Below are positions 33,813-42,271 of a DNA stretch of 64,000 bases, in pieces. Source of the stretch: Anaeromyxobacter dehalogenans 2CP-1 (lineage in GTDB: Bacteria > Myxococcota > Myxococcia > Myxococcales > Anaeromyxobacteraceae); NCBI RefSeq assembly GCF_000022145.1, contig NC_011891.1, positions 248,001-312,000 on the forward strand. Reading direction: 5' to 3'. The notes under the pieces are model-generated. The model saw only the letters and a program-made list of their open reading frames with translations, was not told the DNA's origin and ran no database searches. How positions within the stretch are numbered: the stretch's first letter is position 1; every line of letters starts with the position of its first letter. The translations under genes and the position numbers were made by a program.

Positions 33813-36800
33813 ATGCTCGCACGCCTCGCCGCCCTGCTCGCGCTCTGCCTCGCCTGGACGGGGTCCGTCCGCGCGCTGTCGCCGCTCCCGCCGCCCACGG
33901 GCCTCGACCCCGAGGCGGAGCGCGCCGCCGCGGCGGTGGCGGCGCTCGACCGCGAGCGTCGCGGGCCCCGCGGCCTCGCCGCGCTGGCCGAGCTGGACGC
34001 GCTCGCCGACGACCTGCCCGAGCTCGCCCACCTCGCCGCTGCCTACGCCCGGGCCGCCGACGACCGCGAGGCGCACCCGGAGGTCCGCGCGCTGGCGCGC
34101 TTCCGGCTCGCCGAGGTGGAGCGCGCCCGCGGCAACCTGCAGAAGGAGGCGGCCAGCCTGCAGCGGCTCGGCTTCGTCGCGCGCTGGCGGGTGCTCGGGC
34201 CGTTCGACGACGAGGGCAAGCGCGGGCTCGCCGAGGCGTTCCCGCCCGAGAAGGCCGTGGACCTCGCCGCCCGGTACCCGGGCAAGGTGCGCGAGGTGGC
34301 CTGGCGTGCGCTGCCGGACGACGCGGTGGTGGACGGGTTCGTCCACCTGGGCGCGGCGCTGCGCCCGGCCCGCGAGGTGGTGGCGTACGCGCTCGCCGAG
34401 GTCGAGGCGCCGCGCGAGGTCGAGGCCCGGCTCTGGCTCGGCGCGAGCGGCGCGGCGCGGGTCTGGGTGAACGGCGCGGTGGTGCTCACCGACGCGGACT
34501 ACCACCCGGCCCGGCTCGACCAGCGCGCGGTGGGGGTGACGCTCCGGCGCGGCGCGAACCGGATCCTGGTGAAGCTCTGCCACCAGGACGGCCGCATGGG
34601 CTTCTACCTCCGGCTCGCCGACGCGCGCGGCGAGGGGCTGGAGCTGGCGGCCGCGGATCCGCGCGGCGCCGCGCTCCACGAGGTCCCCGCCCCCGGGCCG
34701 ACCGCGCCGGTGCCGCCCGCGGTGGCGGCGCTGGAGCAGCGGGCGAAGGCCGCCCGCGGCGCGCGCGCCGAGGCGGAGGCCCGGCTCGAGCTGGCGCGGG
34801 TGCTGGCGGCGCGGCAGGGCGGGGACGTGCAGGAACGGCGGGCGGCGGCCGAGGCGCGCCGCGCGGCGCTGCTCGCGCCGGGCTGGGTGGAGGCGCAGCT
34901 CGAGGCGGCGGCGCTGGAAGAGGACCACGGACGCCGGCGGCAGCGCATCGAGGCGGCGCTCGCGGCGGCGCCGGAGGATTCGCGGGCGCTGCGGGCGCTC
35001 GGGCAGGAGGAGCTGGATCAGGGCCGCCCGCAGGCGGCGGCCCGGCTGCTCGAGCGCGCGGTGCGGGCCGCGCCTGGCTGGGCGGCGCCGCGCGTGGAGC
35101 TCGCCGAGGCGCTCTCCCGGGCCGGCCTGGAGGCGCGCGGCGCGCTGCTCGCGGAGGCGACCGCGTCCGCGTTCGCCACGGTGCCCTCCGCGGTGCGGGC
35201 CGCGGCGCGGTCGGCGCGGCGCCTGGGCCGCACCGAGGAGGCGTCGGCGCGCAGCCGCACGCTCGTCGCGCTCCGGTTCGACGACGCGCAGACGCGCGCC
35301 GCGCTGGCGCAGATCCTGGCCGATCGCGGCGACGTGGCCGGCGCGCGGGCGCTGCTCGAGGAGGCGCTGCGCCTCGATCCCTCCGACGCGTACCAGCGGC
35401 TGCGGCTCGGCGACCTGCTCGCGGCGAGCGGGCGCGGGGAGGAGGCGGAGCGCGCCTACGCCGCGGCGCTCGCCCTCGCGCCGGACGAGCCGGACGCGTG
35501 GGAGCGGCGCGGCCGCGCGCGGCTCTCGCAGGGCCGGGTGAAGGACGCGCAGGCCGACCTGCAGCGCGCGCTGGAGCTCCGGCCGCAGAGCCCGGAGCTG
35601 AAGCTCCTGGTGCGGAGCCTCGAGCCGGCGCGCGAGCCGTTCGAGCGCCCCTACCTGCTCGACGCGCGCGCGCTGGCCGCGGCCGCCCCGGCGCCCGAGC
35701 CGGACGAGGACGCGCTGGTGCTGGGCGAGCTGAAGGTCACGCGGGTGCTGCCCTCGGGCCTCTCCTCCACGTACACCCAGACCGTGGTGAAGGTGCTGAC
35801 GCCCCGCGGCGCCGACCAGGCGCGCCGGCAGACCGTGTCCTGGTCGCCGGACCGGCAGGAGGTGCGGGTGGAGCGCGCGCGCATCCTGAAGCCGGACGGG
35901 ACGGTGATCGAGGCGCACGACGAGTCCGAGCGGAGCGCGAGCGAGCCCTGGTACCGGCTCTACTACGACCTGACCGCGCGCACGCTCTCGTTCCCGGCGC
36001 TCGCGCCCGGCGACGTGCTGGAGGTGGCCTGGCGGCTCGAGGACGTGGCCGGGGAGAACCTGCTCTCCGACTACTTCGGCGACCTCACCTTCGTGGACGA
36101 CACCACCCGCAAGGCGCGCTTCGAGTACGTGCTGCTCGTGCCGGCCGCGCGCGCCATCCACGCGAACGCGCCCGCCGGGATCGCGCACGCGCAGCGCACG
36201 CTGCCCGGCGAGGTGGTCGAGCACCGCTGGTCCGCCCGCGACCTGCCCCGCGTCGTGCCCGAGCCGGGCATGCCGGGCTGGAGCGAGGTGTCGCGCCACG
36301 TCCACGTCTCCACGTACGCGAGCTGGGACCAGGTGGCCCGCTTCTACTGGGGGCTGGTGAAGGACGCGGTGCGCCCCACCCCGGAGGTGCGGGCCGAGGC
36401 CGAGCGGATCGCGGCCGAGGTGCTGCGGGCTCGGCGCGGCGAGGGCACGCGCGTGGCGCGCGCGCAGGCCGCTGCGAGCGCGCTGCCGCCGCCCGGCGGC
36501 TGGGACCTCGAGACGCAGCGCGCGCTCACCCGCGCCGTCTACGACTTCGTGGTCTCGCAGACCCGTTACGTGGGGCTGGAGTTCGGCATCCACGGCTACA
36601 AGCCGTACCGGGTGGACCAGGTGCTGCAGCGCCGCTTCGGCGACTGCAAGGACAAGGCGAGCCTGCTGCGCGCCATGCTGGAGTCGATCGGGATCGACGC
36701 GCGACTGGTGCTGCTGCGCATGCGCCGGCTCGGCCGCCTCCCCGAGGCGCCCGCGTCGCTGGCGGTGTTCAACCACGCCATCGTGTACGTGCCGGCGCTC

Positions 36801-37583
36801 GATCTGTGGCTGGACGGCACCGCCGCCTACTCCGGCTCCGGAGACCTGCCCGGCGAGGACCGCGGCGCCACCGTGCTGGTGGTGAACCCGGACGGCAAGC
36901 CGCGCTTCGCCACCGTGCCGGAGGCGCTCCCCGAGCAGAACCGCGGCGAGACCCGCTTCGACGTGGCCCTCGCCGCCGACGGCTCCGCCGCGGTCCGCGG
37001 CGCCTGGCGCGTCACCGGCGCGGAGGCGCCCACCTACCGCCGCGCCTACCTGGTGGAGGAGCAGCGGCGCGCCCAGCTCGAGCAGAGCTTCAACCGCAGC
37101 TTCCCCGGCGTGCGCGTCGCCTCCGTGACCGCCTCCGACCTCACCCGCCTGGAGGACGACGTCACCATGCAGTTCGCGCTGGAGGTCCCCCGCTTCGCCC
37201 GGCCCGACGGCGCCGGCCTGCGCTTCTCGCCGTTCGGCGCGGCGCGCGGCTGGGGCGAGAGCTGGGCCGCGCTCTCCTCGCGGCGGCACGACCTCGACCT
37301 GGGCAGCCCCGCCGAGACGGTGTTCACGTACCGTCACACGCTGCCCGCCGGCTGGCGGATCGCCGAGCTGCCCGACGGCGACGCGGCGAGGACCCCCTAC
37401 GCCAGCTTCGAGGTCCGCTACCGCCGCGAGGGCGCGGCGCTCGTGGCGGAGGCGCGCGTCCGGCTGGAGAAGGGGCGCATCCCGGCCCGCGACTACCCCG
37501 CCTTCCGCGACCTGACCTCGCGCATCGACCGGGCCTTCGCGCGCAAGGTGCGCATCGTCCCGGCCGAGGAGGCGGCGCGATGA
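33813..37583 (+). CDS. Exported TPR / DUF3857 / transglutaminase-like protein with intact triad
   Basis: 1256 residues with a signal peptide (cleavage near VRA). Residues ~125-290 form a jelly-roll-like domain (ARVWVNGAVVL...RGANRILVKL). Helical TPR-type repeats follow to about 610. DUF3857 covers about 640-830 and a transglutaminase-like domain about 910-1010, with Cys945 in FGDCKDK, His988 in FNHAIVYV and Asp1001 in WLDGTA, i.e. a complete Cys-His-Asp triad. DUF3857/transglutaminase proteins are exported in Bacteroidetes and myxobacteria but have no established substrate. The stop overlaps the ATG of a paralogue. Confidence 0.88.
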   Translation: MLARLAALLALCLAWTGSVRALSPLPPPTGLDPEAERAAAAVAALDRERRGPRGLAALAELDALADDLPELAHLAAAYARAADDREAHPEVRALARFRLAEVERARGNLQKEAASLQRLGFVARWRVLGPFDDEGKRGLAEAFPPEKAVDLAARYPGKVREVAWRALPDDAVVDGFVHLGAALRPAREVVAYALAEVEAPREVEARLWLGASGAARVWVNGAVVLTDADYHPARLDQRAVGVTLRRGANRILVKLCHQDGRMGFYLRLADARGEGLELAAADPRGAALHEVPAPGPTAPVPPAVAALEQRAKAARGARAEAEARLELARVLAARQGGDVQERRAAAEARRAALLAPGWVEAQLEAAALEEDHGRRRQRIEAALAAAPEDSRALRALGQEELDQGRPQAAARLLERAVRAAPGWAAPRVELAEALSRAGLEARGALLAEATASAFATVPSAVRAAARSARRLGRTEEASARSRTLVALRFDDAQTRAALAQILADRGDVAGARALLEEALRLDPSDAYQRLRLGDLLAASGRGEEAERAYAAALALAPDEPDAWERRGRARLSQGRVKDAQADLQRALELRPQSPELKLLVRSLEPAREPFERPYLLDARALAAAAPAPEPDEDALVLGELKVTRVLPSGLSSTYTQTVVKVLTPRGADQARRQTVSWSPDRQEVRVERARILKPDGTVIEAHDESERSASEPWYRLYYDLTARTLSFPALAPGDVLEVAWRLEDVAGENLLSDYFGDLTFVDDTTRKARFEYVLLVPAARAIHANAPAGIAHAQRTLPGEVVEHRWSARDLPRVVPEPGMPGWSEVSRHVHVSTYASWDQVARFYWGLVKDAVRPTPEVRAEAERIAAEVLRARRGEGTRVARAQAAASALPPPGGWDLETQRALTRAVYDFVVSQTRYVGLEFGIHGYKPYRVDQVLQRRFGDCKDKASLLRAMLESIGIDARLVLLRMRRLGRLPEAPASLAVFNHAIVYVPALDLWLDGTAAYSGSGDLPGEDRGATVLVVNPDGKPRFATVPEALPEQNRGETRFDVALAADGSAAVRGAWRVTGAEAPTYRRAYLVEEQRRAQLEQSFNRSFPGVRVASVTASDLTRLEDDVTMQFALEVPRFARPDGAGLRFSPFGAARGWGESWAALSSRRHDLDLGSPAETVFTYRHTLPAGWRIAELPDGDAARTPYASFEVRYRREGAALVAEARVRLEKGRIPARDYPAFRDLTSRIDRAFARKVRIVPAEEAAR

Positions 37584-40500
37584 GCCGCGCCGTGCGCCGG
37601 GCCGCGCCGCGGTTCACCGGGGTCGCCGCGCTCGCGGCGCTCGCGCTCGCCTGCGCCGGACCGCGCGCCGAGCAGGCCGAGCCCGGGCGCGCCACGCGCG
37701 AGGGTCTGGCAGCGCTGGAGCAGAACGACGTGGCCCGCGCCGAGGCGCGGCTCGGGCCGGCCTCGCGGGTCCGCGACCCGTGGGCGCGGTTCGGCGCGTC
37801 GCTGCTCGCGCGGCGGGCGCTCGACGGCGAGGCGGAGGTGCAGCGGCTGCTCGCGGCCGTGGAGGCCGGGCCGGACGAGCCCATCGCGCTCGTGGCCCTG
37901 CGCAGGCTCTCTGAGCTGGCCGAGCGCGGCCCGGCGCTGGCGGCGCAGGTGGACGCGGGCGTGCTGCGGCTCGGGGCGGGCGGCCGCCTGCGCGGGCTCG
38001 CCGCCTACCGGGTACGGGTGGCGCGGGTGACCGCGGCGGAGGTGCTCGGGGATCACGAGGCCGCCGCCCAGGCCCGGCGCGAGAACGGCGCGGTCCCGGT
38101 CTGGTCGATCGCCGGGCCGTTCGCGGCCCACCACGCGCTCGACTTCGGCGCGCCCATCCCGCCCGACCGCGGAGAGCTGCCGGCCTCGGTGCCCGGTCGT
38201 GCCGGCGGGCCCGCGGTGCCGACCCGCGCGCTCCCCGCGCCCGACGGCACCGTCGCGCTCGACGGCGAGCCGGCGGGCGGGGACCTGTTCGCGCTCGCCA
38301 CCGACGTGGACCTGGCCCGCGGCGGCCGCTACCTCGTGACGCTCGGGACGCAGCTCTCGGCCCGCCTCGTCGTGGACGGCGCGCTGGTGCACGAGCGGCG
38401 CGCGTTCGGGGCCTGGCTCCCGGGGCTCGTGCACCTGCCGGTGGAGCTCGCGCGCGGCCGGCACCGCGTGGTGCTGGAGGTGACCCGCGGCGGGCCGAGC
38501 ACGGGGATCCACCTGGCCTTCGCGCGCGCCGACGGCGCCGCCTCCGACGCCCGCTTCGCCGCGCCGGCTCCGGGCGCGCCGCCCGCGCCGGCCGCCGCGC
38601 GGTCCCGCGCCGAGCCGGCGCTGACCCCGCGGGCGCTGGCGCTCGCGCTCGAGCCGGACGTCGGGGCGGCCACCGCGCGCCTGCTGGCGGCCCGGGACGC
38701 GATGGTGAACGACCGCGAGGCGGCCAAGGTGCTGCTCGCCGAGGCGCTGGCCCTGCGCCCGGAGGCGGCGGCGCTCCGCGCGGCGCGGGCGGACGCCGCG
38801 GTCGACGACCCGAGCCTCGACGAGCAGGTGGCGCGGGCGCGCGCCGAGGCCGACCTGCGCGAGGCGCTGCGGCTCGACCCGGGCGACGCCGAGGCGCGCG
38901 TGGAGCTCGCGGCCCTGCTGCGCGGCGCCGAGCGCCACGACGACGCCGAGGCGGTGCTGGCCGGCCTGGCCCCCGAGGCGGCCGCCCGGCCCGCCGGGAT
39001 CGCCGCCCGGGCGCGCGCGGCCCAGGCCCGCGGCTTGCTGGAGCGCGCCGAGGGGCTCGCCGCCGAGGCGCTCCGCTCGGCGGGGAGCTGCGACGCGGCC
39101 GACCTCGCCTACGAGCTGGCGGTCCGGCGCGGCGCCGCCGCCCGCGAGGACGAGGCCATGGCGGTGCTCTCGCGCTGCCGGGGCGGTCGCGAGCGCCTGG
39201 CGGGCCACCTCAGGCGGCGCGGCGATCCGGTGGCGGAGCGGGCCGCGCTCGACCCGGTGGTGCGCGCCCGGCCCTGGGCGGTCGAGCCGGGGCTGACCCG
39301 CGCCGACGCGCTCGTCGCCTCGGGGGAGACGCGCCGCGCCGTCGCGGCGCTGGAGGCCATCGCGGGGATCTGGCCGCGAGACGCCCGCGTACAGCGGCGG
39401 CTCGCCGACGCGCGCGAGCTGTCCGGGGACGCGCCCGGCGCCCGCGCCGCGCGCGAGCGGGCGCTGGCGCTCGAACCGGGCGACCTGCAGCTCCGGCGGG
39501 CGCTCGCGCTGGAGGACGGGACCGAGGTGCTCGCCGACGTGGCGGCGGACCCGCGCGCGGCCATCCGCGCGTACGAGGCCGCCGGCCGGCGCAACGGCGC
39601 GTCCACCGTGATGGTGCTCGACGCCGCCTACGTCGACGTCCACCCGGGCGGCGCCGCCACCGAGCGCACGCAGCAGCTCGTGCACGTGCTCGACCAGCAG
39701 GGCGTGGAGCAGTTCGGCGAGGTGACCGTGCCGGCCGGCGCGGACGTGCTCGCGCTCCGCACCATCAAGCCCGACGGCACCACGCTGGAGCCGGAGCGGG
39801 CCGGGAGCGCCAAGGGATCGATCTCGCTGGCCGGGCTCGCGCCGGGGGACTACGTGGAGCTCGACTACGTCCGCGCGGCGCAGTCGCCGCCCGGCCTGGA
39901 GGGCTACGTCGCCGATCCCTTCTACTTCCAGGTGCCCGGGAGCCGGCTGTTCCGGTCGCTGTACGTGGTGCGCGCGCCGGCGGGCCTCGGGCTCGAGGCC
40001 GATGCGCACGGCATGCCGGCGCCCGTGCCGGTGCGGGACGGCGGGCGAGAGGTGCTCCGGGCCGAGCGGCACGACGTGCCGGCGATCGTCCCGGAGCCGG
40101 ACGCGCCGGGCGGCGCCGAGTACCTGCCGTTCCTCGCGGTCGGGACCGGCGGCGGGCGCGCGGCGCTGCAGCGCGCGATCGCCGACGCGCTGCCGGAGCG
40201 CACCCGCGCCACCGCCGAGCTCCGCGCGTTCGCGCGCGAGATCGCGGCGGGCGGCGGCGGGCCGGCCCAGCTCGCGCGCGCCGCCTACGCCCGGGTGGCG
40301 CAGGCGGTGCTCGGGTCGGGCGGCGGGATGGGCGAGGACGCGAGCGTGGCGCTCTCGCGCGGGCGCGGCAGCCGGCTGGCGGTGCTGAAGGCGGTGCTCG
40401 CCGAGCTCGGCATCGAGTCGCGCGTGGCGCTGGTGCGGCCGTACAGCGCCGATCCGGCGCCCTACCGCTTCCCGGCGCTCGGCCTCTACGCCGCGCCCCT

Positions 40501-41296
40501 GCTGCGGGTGCGCGCCGGGGGCGCGACCTTCTGGCTCGACCCGACCGCCCGGCACGCGCCGTTCGGCGCGTTCCCGGCGGTGCTGGCGGGGTGCGAGGCG
40601 CTCGTGCTGCCGGAGCCGGGCGAGGCGCCGGAGGTGGACCGGACGCCGGAGAGCCCGCTGGTGGAGGAGGGCCGGGAGACCACGGCCCGGCTGGTGCTCG
40701 CCGCGGACGGGTCCGCCGAGGCGAGCGGCACCGATCGCTACCTCGGCTACGGCGGCGCGGAGCTGAAGGCCGCGCTCGAGCGCCTCGACGCCGCGCAGCG
40801 GCGCCAGGCGGTGGAGGGGATGCTGGGGCGGGTGCTGCGCGGCGTGACCGTCACCGAGGTCGCGTTCGCGGGCGAGGACGATCCCGCGGCGCCGCTCGAG
40901 ATCCGCTGGAAGGCACGCGTGCCGGAGCTGGCGCGGGCGGTGGAGGGCGGGCTGGTGCTGGACCAGCCGCTCTTCCCGGCGCGCCTCGGCGCGCGGCTGG
41001 TGGGCGTCGCGGCCCGCCGGACGCCGCTCCTCCTGCCCACGCCCGAGCGGCAGGTGCAGCGGGTCGAGGTGGTGCCGCCGCGCGGCCTGGCGGTCGTCGC
41101 CGACGCGCCGCGCACCGCGTCGTCGCCCTCGGGCAGGTTCACGCAGACGGAGCGGCTGGACGGCGGCGCGCTGGTCCGCGAGGAGCGCCTCGACCTGCGC
41201 CGCGGGCGCATCGCGCCGGAGCACTACGCCGAGCTGGCCGCGTTCGCGGCCGCGGTGGACCAGGCGCAGGAGCGGCCGCTGCTCCTCGCACGCTGA
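37580..41296 (+). CDS. TPR / DUF3857 lipoprotein with degenerate transglutaminase domain
   Basis: 1238 residues; lipobox LACA in the signal peptide. Same domain order as the upstream gene: jelly-roll-like region (~residues 165-320), helical repeats (~370-660), DUF3857 (~670-870), transglutaminase-like region (~890-1000). Aligning the helix VLKAVLAELGIESRVALVR with its counterpart upstream puts Arg929 where the catalytic Cys should be; the His position is Ala; only the Asp (Asp987, WLDPTA) remains. It is therefore probably catalytically inactive. ATGA overlap implies coupled translation, so the two proteins likely act as a pair. Confidence 0.85.
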   Translation: MSRAVRRAAPRFTGVAALAALALACAGPRAEQAEPGRATREGLAALEQNDVARAEARLGPASRVRDPWARFGASLLARRALDGEAEVQRLLAAVEAGPDEPIALVALRRLSELAERGPALAAQVDAGVLRLGAGGRLRGLAAYRVRVARVTAAEVLGDHEAAAQARRENGAVPVWSIAGPFAAHHALDFGAPIPPDRGELPASVPGRAGGPAVPTRALPAPDGTVALDGEPAGGDLFALATDVDLARGGRYLVTLGTQLSARLVVDGALVHERRAFGAWLPGLVHLPVELARGRHRVVLEVTRGGPSTGIHLAFARADGAASDARFAAPAPGAPPAPAAARSRAEPALTPRALALALEPDVGAATARLLAARDAMVNDREAAKVLLAEALALRPEAAALRAARADAAVDDPSLDEQVARARAEADLREALRLDPGDAEARVELAALLRGAERHDDAEAVLAGLAPEAAARPAGIAARARAAQARGLLERAEGLAAEALRSAGSCDAADLAYELAVRRGAAAREDEAMAVLSRCRGGRERLAGHLRRRGDPVAERAALDPVVRARPWAVEPGLTRADALVASGETRRAVAALEAIAGIWPRDARVQRRLADARELSGDAPGARAARERALALEPGDLQLRRALALEDGTEVLADVAADPRAAIRAYEAAGRRNGASTVMVLDAAYVDVHPGGAATERTQQLVHVLDQQGVEQFGEVTVPAGADVLALRTIKPDGTTLEPERAGSAKGSISLAGLAPGDYVELDYVRAAQSPPGLEGYVADPFYFQVPGSRLFRSLYVVRAPAGLGLEADAHGMPAPVPVRDGGREVLRAERHDVPAIVPEPDAPGGAEYLPFLAVGTGGGRAALQRAIADALPERTRATAELRAFAREIAAGGGGPAQLARAAYARVAQAVLGSGGGMGEDASVALSRGRGSRLAVLKAVLAELGIESRVALVRPYSADPAPYRFPALGLYAAPLLRVRAGGATFWLDPTARHAPFGAFPAVLAGCEALVLPEPGEAPEVDRTPESPLVEEGRETTARLVLAADGSAEASGTDRYLGYGGAELKAALERLDAAQRRQAVEGMLGRVLRGVTVTEVAFAGEDDPAAPLEIRWKARVPELARAVEGGLVLDQPLFPARLGARLVGVAARRTPLLLPTPERQVQRVEVVPPRGLAVVADAPRTASSPSGRFTQTERLDGGALVREERLDLRRGRIAPEHYAELAAFAAAVDQAQERPLLLAR

Positions 41297-41659: not shown

Positions 41660-42271
41660 TCAGCTGGAGGGCGCCGCCGCGGGCAGCGCGTCCACGAAGC
41701 GGACCTCGGCGAACCCGAGGCCGAGCAGCAGCCCGCGGATGGCCCGCTCCGCCGACGCCCGCGCGCGGGCGCGGAGCGCCGCGTCCGCCTGCACCTCGCG
41801 CTCGAACGCGGCGCGGGCCAGCTCCAGCAGGCGCGCGGTCTCGGCGGAGTCGAGGTTCGAGCCGATCACCTCCGTCTCGCCCGGCCGCAGCGCGATGCGG
41901 ACCTCGACGGGCGGCAGCGCGATCTCCGCGGTGCGCCCGGTCACCCGCACGCGCGAGGCGTCGAGCCGGGCCAGGTCGAGCCCGAGGTGCGCGTCGGCGA
42001 ACACGATCGCCTTGCCGTGCGGCGTGCGGAACACGTGGCGCAGCCAGCCGGCCACGTCGCCCCACAGCGACCCCGCCTCGGCCGGCTCGGGCGAGAACGC
42101 GACCTTCTTGTAGAGCGTGACGTCGAGCGCCTCGAGCCGCGCCACCTCGCGGATCCGGGTGGCCACGGCGGGCGGATCGGGCAGGGCGGGGGCGCGTCCG
42201 AGCCGCAGCGCCAGGCCGAGCCCGGCGCCCGCCGCGAGGCCCAGGACGAGGAGTGCGAGGAGCCGGCGCAT
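41660..42271 (-). CDS. Exported or anchored protein, DUF4230-like
   Basis: 203 residues with one N-terminal hydrophobic segment (residues 3-25) that acts as signal or anchor. The middle part (ATRIREVARLEALDVTLYKKVAF ... TAEIALPPVEVRIALRPGE) matches the pattern of DUF4230 proteins, which are anchored, beta-rich proteins of unknown function. The remainder is a helix rich in Ala/Arg/Glu ending with GLGFAEVRFVD. DUF4230 is proposed from memory of the family pattern and should be checked by profile search. Confidence 0.7.
   Translation of the reverse strand: MRRLLALLVLGLAAGAGLGLALRLGRAPALPDPPAVATRIREVARLEALDVTLYKKVAFSPEPAEAGSLWGDVAGWLRHVFRTPHGKAIVFADAHLGLDLARLDASRVRVTGRTAEIALPPVEVRIALRPGETEVIGSNLDSAETARLLELARAAFEREVQADAALRARARASAERAIRGLLLGLGFAEVRFVDALPAAAPSS

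Follow-up and report, generated by a model that had tools for sequence, protein, structure and literature searches.

A secreted transglutaminase-fold protein and its lipoprotein paralogue without the catalytic cysteine, conserved as a pair across Myxococcota

Two neighbouring genes of Anaeromyxobacter dehalogenans 2CP-1 encode large exported proteins, hereafter termed P1 and P2, in which a transglutaminase (TG)-fold domain follows the domain DUF3857. P1 bears an intact Cys-His-Asp triad, whereas P2 is a lipoprotein paralogue that lacks the cysteine. The pair recurs throughout much of the phylum Myxococcota, the genes frequently overlap by four nucleotides, and the dead domain of P2 is under purifying selection. 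On balance, we lean towards viewing P2 as a pseudoenzyme tethered to the membrane whose role would be to anchor, feed or regulate P1, and P1 as a thiol acyltransferase or peptidase of the periplasm or the cell surface; we infer both the complex and the activity of P1 from sequences and predicted structures. The genes are located in a window of 64,000 nucleotides (contig NC_011891.1 of 5,029,329 bases, positions 248,001 to 312,000), and their features are given below in positions of this window.

33813..37583, + strand: P1, secreted enzyme-like protein of 1256 amino acids, with Sec signal, PA14-like sandwich, tetratricopeptide repeats (TPRs), DUF3857, Cys-His-Asp TG-fold domain and DUF3858-like C-terminus
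34155..34682, + strand: P1 N-terminal beta-sandwich, residues 115-290, PA14/rhamnosidase-D2-like (weak family matches)
34683..35669, + strand: P1 TPR region, approximately residues 291-619 (Pfam TPR matches, e.g. 500-598)
35754..36251, + strand: P1 DUF3857 domain, residues 648-813 (Pfam, E 1.2e-30)
36390..36932, + strand: P1 TG-fold domain, approximately residues 860-1040 (Pfam, model, structural alignment)
36645..36647, + strand: P1 Cys945 codon, in the invariant GDCKDK motif (alignment of relatives)
36774..36776, + strand: P1 His988 codon (alignment of relatives)
36813..36815, + strand: P1 Asp1001 codon (alignment of relatives)
36933..37580, + strand: P1 C-terminal DUF3858-like domain (Pfam and profile-profile comparison)
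37580..37583, + strand: ATGA overlap of the P1 stop and the P2 start (sequence)
37580..41296, + strand: P2, lipoprotein pseudoenzyme paralogue of P1, 1238 amino acids (Pfam, profile-profile comparison, model)
37652..37654, + strand: P2 lipobox Cys25, LALAC-AG (sequence)
38072..38569, + strand: P2 N-terminal beta-sandwich, residues 165-330, homologous to the P1 sandwich (profile-profile comparison)
38570..39541, + strand: P2 TPR-like region, approximately residues 331-654, with weaker repeats (Pfam)
39650..40087, + strand: P2 DUF3857 domain, residues 691-836 (Pfam, E 8e-9)
40220..40654, + strand: P2 pseudo-transglutaminase domain, approximately residues 881-1025 (model; aligns to human TG2/TG3/FXIII, Z about 9)
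40364..40375, + strand: P2 residues 929-932, Arg-Gly-Ser-Arg replacing Cys-Lys-Asp-Lys (alignment of relatives)
40493..40495, + strand: P2 Ala972 codon, His position (alignment of relatives)
40538..40540, + strand: P2 Asp987 codon, retained (alignment of relatives)
40655..41293, + strand: P2 C-terminal domain, with homology to the P1 C-terminal domain (profile-profile comparison)

A previous sequence-only reading of this DNA had located both open reading frames (ORFs), the ATGA overlap, the residues Cys945, His988 and Asp1001 of P1 and the residues Arg929 and Asp987 of P2 exactly where we find them. Likewise, the domain order that it proposed for both proteins was borne out: pairwise comparison showed homology between P1 and P2 for the sandwich, DUF3857, the TG domain and the C-terminal domain (hhalign probability 99.4%, 99.7%, 98.8% and about 100%, respectively), which makes P2 a full-length paralogue of P1, and the helical repeats correspond to TPRs. 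Both proteins are indeed large, although the term giant is generous for 1238 to 1256 amino acids. Pfam detected TPRs, DUF3857 and Transglut_core in P1, with DUF3858 below threshold, and DUF3857 together with weak TPRs, without any TG match, in P2. The gathering score of DUF3857 (PF12969, 24.6 bits) was passed by P1 (107.2) as well as by P2 (36.2), and P1 passed the cut-off of Transglut_core (PF01841) with 34.8 vs 23 bits. The profile of the N-terminal sandwich weakly matches the PA14 structure of RsgI3 (6qe7, E 5.7e-5), and 6 out of 33 sandwich members show a weak match to RhaB_D2 (best E 1.5e-4); this likeness would fit glycan binding, as the TPRs of both proteins would fit protein binding. 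Opposite P1 and P2, the antisense strand contains ORFs of 1291 and 1365 amino acids, which we disregarded as shadow frames of GC-rich DNA.

The difference between the two active sites is uniform among the relatives. Cys, His and Asp of P1 are kept in 48/48 proteins. At the Cys position of P2, in contrast, Cys is present in 0/59 relatives, the site being occupied by Arg (46), Glu (7), Gln (4), Ala (1) or Ser (1), and no conserved Cys is found elsewhere in the P2 TG domain of these 59 proteins, a possibility which the sequence-only reading had raised against itself. Moreover, Gly930 is present in 59/59, Arg932 in 58/59 and Asp987 in 51/59 P2 relatives, and the His position is free, with 15 residue types and His retained in 14 proteins. 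In the P2 protein of the window this position is best read as Ala972, judged by the distance to the Asp strand, where P2 has two additional residues; plain alignment points to Ala971, so that the Ala claimed earlier without a number stands either way. One profile-profile alignment placed a three-residue gap over C-K-D instead of Arg at that site, and again Cys is absent in P2.

Structure prediction of the single domains, which the sequence-only reading had proposed, yielded confident models. AlphaFold2 models of P2 residues 655-1238 and P1 residues 620-1256, calculated from alignments of 50 and 41 relatives, reached a mean pLDDT of 93.8 and 91.3, respectively. Cys945 of P1 (model residue 326) is the first residue of helix 326-339, as expected for the TG fold, and Arg929 of P2 is found in the same helix register, 13 residues before the helix end. 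Residues 217-418 of the P1 model align with TG2, TG3 and factor XIII with Z 9.2-9.9, and residues 205-371 of the P2 model with Z 8.6-9.5. In addition, the DUF3857 part of both models is similar in structure to the domain at the N-terminus of M1 aminopeptidases and to the portion of ribophorin I/Ost1 that faces the lumen (Z up to 11.1, 166 residues, root-mean-square deviation (rmsd) 3.9).

The best structural match of both models is 3KD4 (BDI_1141 of Parabacteroides distasonis; P1 with Z 31.7 over 492 residues, rmsd 3.0; P2 with Z 19.7 over 464 residues, rmsd 4.0), which is also the only PDB match of both profiles and contains a DUF3857-TG-DUF3858 core in the same order as P1 and P2. Like P2, it is devoid of the catalytic Cys, with Pro in YGTPLE vs the FGDCKD of P1. 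Hence, dead DUF3857-TG domains are not confined to Myxococcota, and the label 'putative protease' given to 3KD4 is doubtful; the structure hints that dead partners of this kind could be general beyond the phylum. Unlike P1 and P2, the crystallised chain has neither a PA14-like nor a TPR part, and the match says nothing about function.

Genome searches with profiles of the C-terminal half of the proteins revealed P2 matches in 114 of the 116 genomes of the class to which A. dehalogenans belongs. As a few of them are fragments or the P1 paralogue (G006, G026), P2 was counted in at least 112/116 genomes. Together with its presence in other classes, this disposes of the concern, voiced with the initial proposal, that the second gene might frequently be absent. 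Matches to the P2 profile were likewise obtained in each of the nine f11 genera and in additional Myxococcota families, and adjacent pairs were observed in families f11, f13, f14, f17, f24 and f25, the first protein bearing the Cys and the second lacking it wherever the TG domain is covered. P2 is retained even in Myxococcaceae (f2) genomes of 2.1-2.7 Mb, and the 2.7 Mb genome G029 keeps both genes. The occurrence of orthologous pairs with the same difference across the phylum places this difference far beyond chance; the pairing of an intact-triad protein with a lipoprotein pseudoenzyme, as originally proposed for this locus, is thus conserved phylum-wide.

In a tree of the C-terminal part (91 rows), P1 and P2 are split by a single branch with 100% support, and their subtrees run in parallel order, with G134 (f14) first, then f11 and then the class. 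The fully supported branch and the parallel order argue for a single duplication before the class, which fits P1 and P2 clades extending across the class, f11 and f14. Both L124 proteins, the most divergent, form long branches flagged by the tree program, and the pairs of f13, f17, f24 and f25 lie outside the tree. In the draft genome G126, an in-frame TAA breaks the P2 reading frame (L126, 6898-10734), which reflects either an error or a pseudogene. Elsewhere in the genome that holds the window, locus L053 (C1:588000-604000; DUF3857 at C1:595609-596103) encodes a third DUF3857-TG protein with an active-looking YGDCKD motif and a layout opposite to that of P1 and P2, the DUF3857-TG part coming first and the TPRs after it; other genomes of Anaeromyxobacter contain DUF3857 genes of a similar kind. 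A plasmid collection contained only distant DUF3857-TG relatives and no tandem pair like P1-P2: two of three annotated regions carry a single DUF3857 gene and one carries two DUF3857-TG genes separated by three genes.

The stop codon of P1 and the start codon of P2 overlap by exactly four nucleotides in 28/37 linked pairs (ATGA, GTGA and once TTGA), where P2 starts were taken as the candidate nearest -4, a choice that favours this value, but almost every such start is immediately followed by a signal peptide; the remaining nine pairs are spaced by -20 to +2. The ATGA overlap suggests translational coupling. In Anaeromyxobacteraceae, P2 lies directly downstream at all P1 loci with enough contig, and iPGM-ComF is found upstream wherever the contig reaches. 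The flanking genes vary by family (iPGM/ComF, PFK, RecD2, SucC, FHA), which identifies the P1-P2 pair as a unit of its own. We rejected the neighbourhood as a guide to function, the pair alone being constant and the neighbours mostly housekeeping genes that change between families. In the Myxococcaceae P1 stays by ComF and P2 is located behind a Ser/Thr kinase gene (L095 5128-7008, L097 4650-6458, L099 12596-14512), the product of which looks extracytoplasmic in its C-terminal half after a hydrophobic stretch and might be a sensor kinase linked to P2. In family f25, the pair has FHA-domain genes as neighbours (L171 3598-5220; L172 1976-3991), placing phospho-signalling beside P1-P2 again. In Anaeromyxobacter, a convergent DUF4230 gene follows P2 (window 41660-42271, - strand), a position kept in other genomes of the genus.

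As regards localisation, P1 of the window contains a Sec signal, with Sec-type signals in the sampled relatives, and the P2 signal ends in the lipobox LALAC-AG with Cys25, in line with the proposal of one secreted protein and one lipoprotein. Among the P2 relatives whose N-terminus is intact almost all have a lipobox, and P2 is a lipoprotein in nearly all of the families covered. Since Ala, not Asp, occupies position +2, P2 is probably located in the outer membrane.

We therefore envisage, on the grounds of these sequence and model comparisons, that a secreted PA14-like/TPR/DUF3857/TG-fold protein was duplicated long ago, which may have given rise to a two-component envelope module. P1 would be the soluble component, exported to the periplasm or the surface, where its Cys-His-Asp site would make it a thiol enzyme of the TG/papain fold performing acyl transfer, that is, hydrolysis of peptide or amide bonds or transamidation. 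P2 would be anchored by its lipid, probably in the outer membrane; in its TG domain, the nucleophile has been lost and a fixed [R/E/Q]-G-x-R site has been acquired. Most likely, P2 would bind P1 via the shared domains and thereby hold it at the membrane, while its dead pocket and its sandwich and TPR surfaces may bind the substrate or turn P1 on or off in the manner of known pseudoenzyme paralogues. The TG fold alone cannot decide between crosslinking and peptide processing, both of which the sequence-only reading had suggested.

Several observations weigh against this interpretation. P1 and P2 are unlinked in the Myxococcaceae (f2) and in the three related families f6, f7 and f9, where they are separated by 48 kb (G102), 70 kb (G052) or 152 kb (G063) or reside on different contigs, and both genes are nevertheless retained; co-translation is consequently not obligatory, and the claim that the ATGA overlap implies production at a ratio of 1:1 does not follow. 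The P2 proteins of genus g4 (G014-G016; L051, L052, L054, L060) carry an ordinary Sec-type signal instead of a lipobox and offer a natural test of the importance of tethering. Two draft genomes of medium quality, G010 and G017, lack P1 and P2 alike. The ratio of nonsynonymous to synonymous substitution rates (dN/dS) between two close strains speaks in favour of the interpretation, as no part of P1 or P2 has a lower value than the dead P2 TG domain (0.015, as compared to 0.133 for all of P2 and 0.031 for the P1 TG domain), but this contrast rests on about one replacement in 145 codons. Finally, the long-term conservation of two paralogues is no proof that P1 and P2 touch.

These points bear on the main rival explanation, which we consider rather unlikely: P1 and P2 could be subfunctionalised paralogues that do not meet, P1 being an enzyme and P2 a lipoprotein in its own right that uses its remodelled TG pocket to bind a ligand, for instance a peptide, glycan or muropeptide, in sensing or structure. 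The persistence of both genes where they lie apart, the kinase gene beside P2 in the Myxococcaceae, the fixation of the new motif G930/R932 and the low dN/dS of the dead TG domain would all be accommodated by such a division. However, the four-nucleotide overlap is retained in many families while all flanking genes change, which points to coupled production, and the homology across all domains favours pairing. Improbable in our judgement is the idea that P2 is a substrate or anchor modified or cleaved by P1, for instance with P1 attached to P2 at the membrane or releasing it. While the same compartment, the coupled genes and the acyl-transfer chemistry of the TG/papain fold are compatible with it, it leaves the conserved dead pocket unexplained, and we noticed neither a conserved Lys/Gln-rich tail nor a cleavage-like linker, though no systematic search was made.

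Still less credible is that P2 is no pseudoenzyme at all and performs a different, Cys-independent chemistry at its R-G-x-R/Asp site. The strong conservation of Gly930, Arg932 and Asp987 would agree with such a site, but without any conserved Cys, with R, E, Q, A or S at its position and with a free His position, it is unlike a catalytic one. The notion that P2 is a duplicate in decay, without lasting function, to which the lost Cys and the freely drifting His position might point, is already contradicted by its presence in nearly all genomes over class-level time, by the invariant new motif and by an overall dN/dS of 0.133 (0.128 for P1); despite small counts, these ratios and the class-wide invariants argue strongly against decay.

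Compared with known systems, P1 shares Cys-His-Asp with the Transglut_core enzymes (TG2, TG3, factor XIII and bacterial TG-like proteases), and both domains align to human transglutaminases, whereas P2 differs in having neither the Cys nor a Pfam TG match. Inactive TG-fold proteins are known in EPB42 and FBXO21 (PMC10318531) and in the bacterial hm2192, an 'inactive transglutaminase' fused to seven transmembrane helices (PMC12096838); like P2 they combine the fold with loss of catalysis, but these papers do not report an active paralogue encoded with them in one operon. HvyA of Caulobacter (PMC4241560) and the TG-like genes of Burkholderia under NtrC control (PMC5491218) were also considered as candidate relatives. 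Activation of an enzyme by its catalytically dead paralogue has been reported for the trypanosome AdoMetDC prozyme and the DHS paralogue (PMC5201418, PMC3663545). These are, like P2, dead duplicates of active enzymes; they form proven eukaryotic complexes, whereas P2 is a bacterial lipoprotein and its complex with P1 is putative. In the open-access literature, DUF3857 itself appears in a single paper, as a neighbour gene of lolA in Xanthomonas (PMC6341742). We found no published function for the P1-P2 pair or the 3KD4 protein in this literature, where 3KD4 is mentioned only as a relative by TG fold, and the pair thus seems undescribed.

Tentatively, much of Myxococcota may share an undescribed two-protein envelope machine, in which a soluble Cys-His-Asp acyltransferase or peptidase would be directed by an outer-membrane-tethered pseudoenzyme twin, its dead pocket having turned into a fixed Arg-lined binding site, with substrate choice or activation residing in the dead partner. 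The retention of the pair through most of the depth of the phylum, often down to the four-base overlap and with one partner uniformly dead, points strongly to an envelope function that has gone unrecognised. P1 and P2, whose evolutionary record is unusually deep and clean, represent a clear natural case of division of labour between a live enzyme and its pseudoenzyme twin, and the pair provides DUF3857, a widespread domain of solved structure and no known function, with an experimental handle in genetically tractable myxobacteria.

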